Below are positions 17,836 to 18,594 of a stretch of 64,000 nucleotides of DNA, in pieces. Under the pieces are notes generated by a model. It had not been told where the DNA came from. It saw only the letters and a list, made by a program, of their open reading frames with translations, and searched no databases. The position numbers and the translations under genes were made by a program. This stretch comes from Pseudomonadota bacterium. GTDB lineage: Bacteria; Pseudomonadota; Gammaproteobacteria; CALCKW01. Position 1 is the first letter of the stretch; each line of letters opens with the position of its first letter. The stretch covers positions 1-64,000 of the forward strand of contig JBCCUP010000001.1 of assembly GCA_039196715.1 (NCBI GenBank), read 5' to 3'.

Positions 17836-18225
17836 CTACGCGGCGGACCGGCGTGCGGCGCGCGGTGCCGTCACCGCAGGCGGATCGACCTGCACGGGCT
17901 CCCATTCGATGAGTGGCACATCGTCCGAGCAACTCCAGTCATAGGTCGATTTCTCGGTCGACCACATCCGGGTGACATGCCGTTTGAACTGGTGCTGGCC
18001 ATCCGACGGCTGCTCGCGCTCGACGTAGACAAACCGACACCGCGCACGCAGGGCGTCGATGTCCCCGGCGTGCCGAATTCGAAAGGGCCGGCGCGGCAAG
18101 CCCCCCTCGCCCCAGCGCCGGTCGAGCGCCACCACCCGCATGCCCGCCGTGAGGCCGATGATCGGCATCCAGTCGGCCTCGGACCCGTCAGCGTTCAGCG
18201 TTGCGGCGCACAGTCGACCTTGCAT
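17836..18225 (-). CDS. Stand-alone DUF3391-like protein
   Basis: This 129-aa protein shows the pattern of the DUF3391 domain that normally precedes HD-GYP cyclic-di-GMP phosphodiesterases: GLTAGMRVVALDRRWGEGG, PFRIRHAGDIDAL and CRFVYVERE (about residues 24-72). No HD-GYP part follows; the remaining 57 residues are polar and unrecognised. Two starts are possible, 18225 or 18168; the former leaves the paired palindromes (18243-18292) just upstream. It may be a remnant of a longer signalling protein or an independent adaptor. The call rests on motif resemblance only. Confidence 0.55.
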   Translation of the reverse strand: MQGRLCAATLNADGSEADWMPIIGLTAGMRVVALDRRWGEGGLPRRPFRIRHAGDIDALRARCRFVYVEREQPSDGQHQFKRHVTRMWSTEKSTYDWSCSDDVPLIEWEPVQVDPPAVTAPRAARRSAA

Positions 18226-18242
18226 GTGGCTTTGCCCCCGTG

Positions 18243-18292
18243 TGTGTGGCACACAGCATTGCGTTTCAGCGCCGACGCGTGTGTGACACACA
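18243..18292 (-). promoter_or_regulatory. Two matching palindromes TGTGTG-N-CACACA upstream of the DUF3391-like gene
   Basis: TGTGTGGCACACA (18243-18255) and TGTGTGACACACA (18280-18292) are perfect 6+6 inverted repeats with a one-base centre, spaced 37 bases centre to centre, 18 to 67 bases before the proposed start. Two copies of the same short palindrome at a promoter suggest operators for a dimeric regulator. The regulator is not identified. They could instead be chance low-complexity GT/CA sequence. Confidence 0.5.
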
Positions 18293-18478
18293 CACCATCT
18301 CGGGCGCTGGCCGGCAGCACGGCACGCAAGACACGCCGAAAATGCGACGGCCGTCGCGTCTCAAATGCCGAGATGCGCTGCCAAACGTCAGGGCAGCCCG
18401 CCAAACCGGGCCCGCTGCGCCCGCCAGAGGAGGCCGTTGCCGGCGGGGCGCCTGCGGTCATCTACAGGGTGGGCTAAC

Positions 18479-18518: not shown

Positions 18519-18594
<76 letters not shown>

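Follow-up and report, generated by a model that had tools for sequence, protein, structure and literature searches.

According to the accessible text of PMC12943098, DUF3391 has a structure (3TM8), is termed uncharacterised, and occurs in fusions with HD-GYP, T2SSB, SpoIIE, and MCP parts; in some HD-GYP proteins, its removal left enzyme activity unaffected. On the simplest reading, the domain would be a separable interaction module. The same text describes independent DUF3391 proteins, often with HD domains downstream behind frameshifts, and the available part of PMC9239104 mentions a DUF3391 gene beside gspB in Alteromonas. As described, these, like the gene studied here, are not fused to HD-GYP. 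The HD-GYP protein VC2497 of V. cholerae (available part of PMC4212101) shares with our protein a DUF3391 domain above the curated cut-off, and the motif GM-x-V-x-x-L-D-x-x-W, followed by F and I-x-x-L-x-x-x-C-x-x-V, appears in our protein as it does in the DUF3391 of HD-GYP proteins. Unlike VC2497, however, it has no HD-GYP part and carries a short tail instead, and no DUF3391-HD-GYP fusion was found in its order.

With respect to regulation, the closest counterparts are the class II CRP promoters of E. coli, CC(−41.5) and mchA, as presented in the accessible part of PMC12360894. The predicted promoters of the order's DUF3391 genes resemble them in the inverted TGTGA repeats 6 bp apart, in the position of these repeats over the −35 region, and in a weak −10 element at matching distance. 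In contrast to the E. coli promoters, the sites in this order are predicted from sequence, and the copy studied here lacks the left half-site. A CRP-controlled family of stand-alone DUF3391 proteins was not found described in the accessible full-text literature on DUF3391, PF11871, HD-GYP/CRP, and Granulosicoccus with cyclic di-GMP.

The gene lies in a stretch of 64,000 nucleotides, which we call the window, and is surrounded by the following features:

17836–18225, minus strand: stand-alone DUF3391 ORF of 129 amino acids from the preferred ATG (PF11871, C2 paralogue, codons, tree).
18154–18225, minus strand: N-terminal segment (residues 1–24) outside the Pfam match; C2 retains it in the alignment, starting near residue 15 (EADxMPIIGL).
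18243–18255, strand not assigned: proximal palindrome TGTGTG-G-CACACA, TGTGTGGCACACA, spanning about −7 to +5, with the predicted transcription start and the final base of the −10-like hexamer inside it.
18255–18260, minus strand: −10-like hexamer AATGCT of the putative promoter, spaced as in the paralogues.
18280–18292, strand not assigned: distal palindrome TGTGTG-A-CACACA, TGTGTGACACACA (about −44 to −32).
18282–18297, minus strand: CRP slot, where the family has its CRP-like site; it reads TGGTGTGTGTGTCACA here, scoring 7/10 in the site scan with the right half TCACA intact.
18519–18594, minus strand: tRNA-Thr(TGT), upstream of the gene; the order birA-coaX-tRNA-Thr recurs in G001, G002, and G003.

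In the mechanical ORF list, the longest form of the frame comprises 151 amino acids and starts from GTG at 18291. Since this codon falls within the distal palindrome, we prefer the ATG at 18225, which also matches the starts of the paralogues better by alignment and codon comparison. The ORF, which stops at 17836, matches PF11871 with 34.9 bits (E 2.7e-8, residues 25–77) and thus belongs to DUF3391 by the curated Pfam cut-off of 27.8 bits. At 129 amino acids, it is not a DUF3391-HD-GYP phosphodiesterase: an HD_5 profile search yielded no match on the window contig, and the two HD_5 matches of the genome lie on contigs C14 and C9. The sequence-only reading, which had described a DUF3391 without its HD-GYP part, is borne out in this respect. 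The frame, whose lack of conservation was to count against that reading, is also conserved. Contig C2 holds a paralogue with 51% identity over residues 9–113; 18 of the 56 identical residues use different codons, and the differences fall most often on the third codon position (45, 43, and 57 for positions one to three). The two copies are sisters in the tree (support 97/96), and no orthologue of either turned up among the copies from the three other genomes.

The window gene is stand-alone but no lone oddity. A search with a profile of nine members over four genomes of one genus, our sample of the order (the own genome, G000, and G001, G002, and G003), retrieved 13 DUF3391 copies, two to four per genome, every one of them stand-alone in a short frame of 98–195 amino acids. 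Hence the window gene belongs to a family that has DUF3391 as its only domain and several copies per genome. For comparison, we used an even sample of the class comprising 369 genomes, 97 of which have a DUF3391 match at E 1e-6 or better. Among the 150 matches listed across the class, 13 come from this order, while by hand count 133 of the 137 others belong to frames of 400 amino acids or more, taken as HD-GYP protein size. The four short frames among these listed others are G259:C3 and G354:C129, which are alike, G216:C56, and the truncated G317:C361.

Conversely, the seven HD_5 matches of the order's four genomes all lie on contigs other than those of the DUF3391 copies. By eye, their frames read as REC-HD-GYP or membrane HD-GYP proteins without DUF3391, and neither PF11871 nor the family profile matched the order's HD-GYP proteins. 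Because the copies are all short while the HD-GYP proteins of the genus read as lacking the domain, DUF3391 appears, as far as these profiles tell, to be separated from the HD-GYP enzyme in this order. The own genome also has 18 GGDEF matches. Unlike the independent proteins described in the accessible text of PMC12943098, the 13 copies are short, have no HD_5 on their contigs, and include two sets that keep their neighbours between genomes. A frameshifted HD-GYP gene is ruled out, as none of the 13 copies shares a contig with an HD_5 match and what follows the window copy on its own strand is a YdcZ-type gene.

The first of the two sets (C10 of the own genome, G1C272, G3C25, and G2C1; loci L038, L084, L086, and L042) is divergent in all four genomes from nrdJ, the gene of the B12-dependent ribonucleotide reductase; its identity rests on TIGR02504 in the own genome and on like sequence in the others. 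In the second, C16, G1C440, and G3C28 have in common a neighbour of 157 amino acids that looks FKBP-like by eye. GGDEF neighbours occur at two loci, divergent at G3C28 and convergent at the G2C69 pair, and the genes beside these copies on G002 C69 and G003 C28 (L040, L043) read as GGDEF-EAL-like.

Two observations outside the order concern the origin of stand-alone copies. In G216:C56 (L090, about 1128–1615), the 5′ end of a DUF3391-HD-GYP gene is partly repeated in tandem beside the full gene, a possible route by which stand-alone DUF3391 genes might arise. G259 and G354, from another family (L087, L088), hold a conserved stand-alone pair with a different tail, which suggests a second, separate origin.

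What most of the family has in common upstream is a CRP-like site. We scored matches to TGTGA-N6-TCACA out of 10 in the 300 bases that precede each of the 13 copies. Eight copies (C2, C16, G2C69a, G3C28, G3C155, G3C25, G1C440, and G1C272) reach at least 9/10, C10 scores 8/10, the window copy 7/10, and G2C69b, G2C70, and G2C1 6–7/10. Within 160 bp upstream, sites of at least 9/10 occur at 8 of the 13 copies, compared to a mean of 0.1 and a maximum of 2/13 in 300 rounds of shuffling and to at most 1/13 for seven control patterns that differ in spacing or words. Among control ORFs of at least 200 amino acids, only 1 of 129 has such a site upstream (Fisher p 3e-9, which overstates independence because the copies are related and their eight sites are not eight independent events). 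Among the DUF3391 genes of HD-GYP size in other orders, a CRP-like site was found at 2 of the 36 loci examined. In 219,099 bases of genus DNA (the window and 19 fetched loci), 12 sites score at least 9/10, and eight of these are the ones at DUF3391 copies. By these counts, the family as a whole carries CRP-like sites of the kind expected for a class II CRP regulon. CRP itself is encoded in the own genome and in G002 (NF008732, 348.5 and 351.6 bits at a cut-off of 266). The exact pattern TGTKA-N6-TCACA has 10 matches in the own genome, including one upstream of C2, and also matches the G003 C28 and G001 C440 promoters.

The site is apparently no universal rule for DUF3391 genes. The stand-alone copies of G259 and G354 reach at most 8/10, G2C70 and G2C1 have no site, and G2C69b has none of its own but follows G2C69a. 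Independently of the family, two perfect TGTGA-N6-TCACA sites, 23 bases apart from start to start, lie upstream of an unrelated 258-amino acid ORF (L039:808-846).

The sites are embedded in what looks like a promoter frame. The position of the −10 element in a class II promoter centred at −41.5 follows from simple arithmetic, and 21 bases beyond the CRP-like sites we find the hexamers CAGACT, CATTCT, CATGCT, CAAAGT, TAGTCT, TAGTGT, and TATTAT (compared to TATAAT); in C10 the hexamer (TAGTCT) is shifted by one. Over nine genes, offset 37 gives the best −10 match at 2.56 of 6, a value equalled by offset 64 (the average across offsets is 1.49), and it is best alone over eight genes when G2C69a is left out (2.88), whose site lies 150 bp from the start and has no −10 match. 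In G3C155, the frame implies a later ATG, located behind a GGAGG-like sequence.

The window promoter aligns without gaps to those of C2, C16, G3C28, and G1C440, and it has GTCACACACG in common with C2, which establishes the equivalence of position. Its site, however, is degraded. A score of 7/10 is reached by 57% of the shuffles of its own upstream region, so that CRP control of this particular gene is unsupported by its own sequence. In place of the site, we find the two 13-base palindromes that the sequence-only reading had pointed out just upstream of the gene; they differ in the centre base and lie 37 bases apart from start to start, with 24 bases between them. The distal palindrome is offset by 3.5 bases from the middle of the CRP slot, with which it shares the right half TCACA, while the proximal one starts at the last base of AATGCT and covers the predicted transcription start.

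The palindromes had been taken as matched operators for specific regulation. A genome search, suggested at the same time, showed that the 13-mer is not frequent: exact TGTGTG-N-CACACA occurs exactly twice in the 4,954,657 bases of the own genome, both times directly upstream of the window gene, and the 14 sites with one mismatch are at background (17 for the reversed control). One further exact copy was found genus-wide, in G002, inside an ORF that is recN-like by eye. In the fetched loci of the 12 other DUF3391 copies, the pair is absent save for a single one-mismatch site near C10 (G000:C10:8737-8749, L038:5738), between nrdJ and the DUF3391 gene and 264 bases from nrdJ. With two exact sites, one-mismatch sites at background, and none at the paralogue loci apart from this one, the 13-mer was dropped as the signal of a genome-wide regulon. 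It is neither found at several genes nor, apart from that one-mismatch site, in the fetched loci of the other copies, whereas the sites of a dedicated operator system would recur at several genes or be conserved in orthologues. Consequently, the pair is no family operator, and the step from matched sites to specific regulation is not supported in that form: the conserved upstream element of the family is the CRP-like site.

We consider it an about even chance that the window gene is a diverging, species-specific member of a CRP-controlled family of mini-proteins, of roughly 95–135 amino acids with one DUF3391, a short tail, and no HD-GYP, and that its ancestral promoter has been overwritten. 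This ancestral class II promoter would have comprised TGTGA-N6-TCACA centred near −41.5 and a −10 hexamer 21 bases downstream. The window copy would have kept the frame, namely the TCACA half, AATGCT, and the distance to the ATG, while the left CRP half and the start region would have turned into GT/CA runs that by chance make up a matching pair of palindromes. CRP control of this copy would most likely be weakened or lost, and the palindromes would be by-products of the change in sequence, not operators for a dedicated regulator. We favor an overwritten promoter over a family operator because the pair sits in the CRP slot and the start region, has GT/CA arms, and is missing from the other copies. 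The arms are short runs, and the two longest such runs of the window are located here. A weak point is that two matching palindromes are rarer than in shuffles, which selection would also explain: an identical 6+1+6 pair within 60 bp appeared in none of 150 dinucleotide shuffles of the window. If any spacer of 0–8 is allowed, 7 of 150 shuffles contain such a pair, and the after-the-fact significance is therefore modest.

The main rival, doubtful in our view, takes the same rarity at the same spacer (0/150) as the work of selection. Here, CRP control would have been lost and two operators gained for a regulator recognizing TGTGTG-N-CACACA, with one dimer on the −35 region (about −44 to −32) and the other on the start site (about −7 to +5), an arrangement in which binding would repress the gene. 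The placement over both landmarks, the two exact copies found nowhere else in the genome, and the one-mismatch copy between nrdJ and the C10 gene fit this idea. However, a dedicated regulator would have a single genomic target, the 37-base spacing of about 3.5 helical turns would put the dimers on opposite faces, no counterpart of the C10 site turned up at the syntenic loci of G001, G002, and G003, and one-mismatch sites and arm composition speak for background and simple GT/CA runs. No more probable is that CRP still acts on the window copy, where the intact TCACA and a poor left half would be enough at a class II promoter. The right half-site, the −10-like hexamer, and all spacings are kept and the genome has CRP, but the score is no better than that of shuffles. 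A gene decaying after duplication, its promoter lost and its protein drifting without function, is the least probable of these: residues kept in most of the family are missing (DRRW for D-K/R-P-W, RPF for QGF), the copy resembles most other members slightly less than its sister C2 does, and the syntenic place in G002 and G003 has no DUF3391 gene, but the frame is open and the identity to C2 and the codon differences described above argue against it.

As a diverging family member, the protein would most likely act in trans: through its DUF3391 fold, it would serve the c-di-GMP network as a module that binds proteins. An adaptor in cyclic-di-GMP signalling had also been the suggestion of the sequence-only reading, and we infer such a trans-acting module from the domain. 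Structure modelling from the single sequence gave a poor result, with a mean pLDDT of 37.7, and a model from seven sequences reached 65.5, with blocks within residues 21–70 at about 86–93. A search of the structure model against the PDB returned no match (best E 0.83), and 3TM8 was neither among the three chains from the profile search nor among the best 50 of 193 Foldseek matches. An order in which every DUF3391 found is a small protein of its own, in most cases behind a predicted CRP promoter, allows the domain to be studied cleanly without the enzyme, and these promoters hint at a link from cAMP to c-di-GMP. Taken further, in a scenario that we regard as improbable, DUF3391 would have been freed from HD-GYP and multiplied into small proteins under cAMP-CRP, carbon status (cAMP) would set the dose of a trans-acting c-di-GMP partner, and in the window copy CRP would have given way to a repressor that recognizes paired TGTGTG-N-CACACA operators.

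Downstream of birA-coaX-tRNA-Thr, no DUF3391 gene was present in about 4 and 5 kb read beyond the tRNA in G003 and G002, respectively; the G001 contig ends 373 bases past the tRNA. Exact 14-base tRNA fragments, looked for as a sign of island insertion, were absent from the rest of the window. The polysaccharide region next to which the gene had been placed does lie inside the window. “Next to” is loose and the link weak, since the polysaccharide genes are about 0.6–9 kb away, with cadherin-like, glycine betaine-type transporter, arginine deiminase-like, and YdcZ-type genes between. Finally, the REC-HD-GYP proteins of the genus (L091, L092, L094) end in a conserved LQPGM..A.NI..NGMLLLGAGQ.L, which by eye recalls the DUF3391 core.
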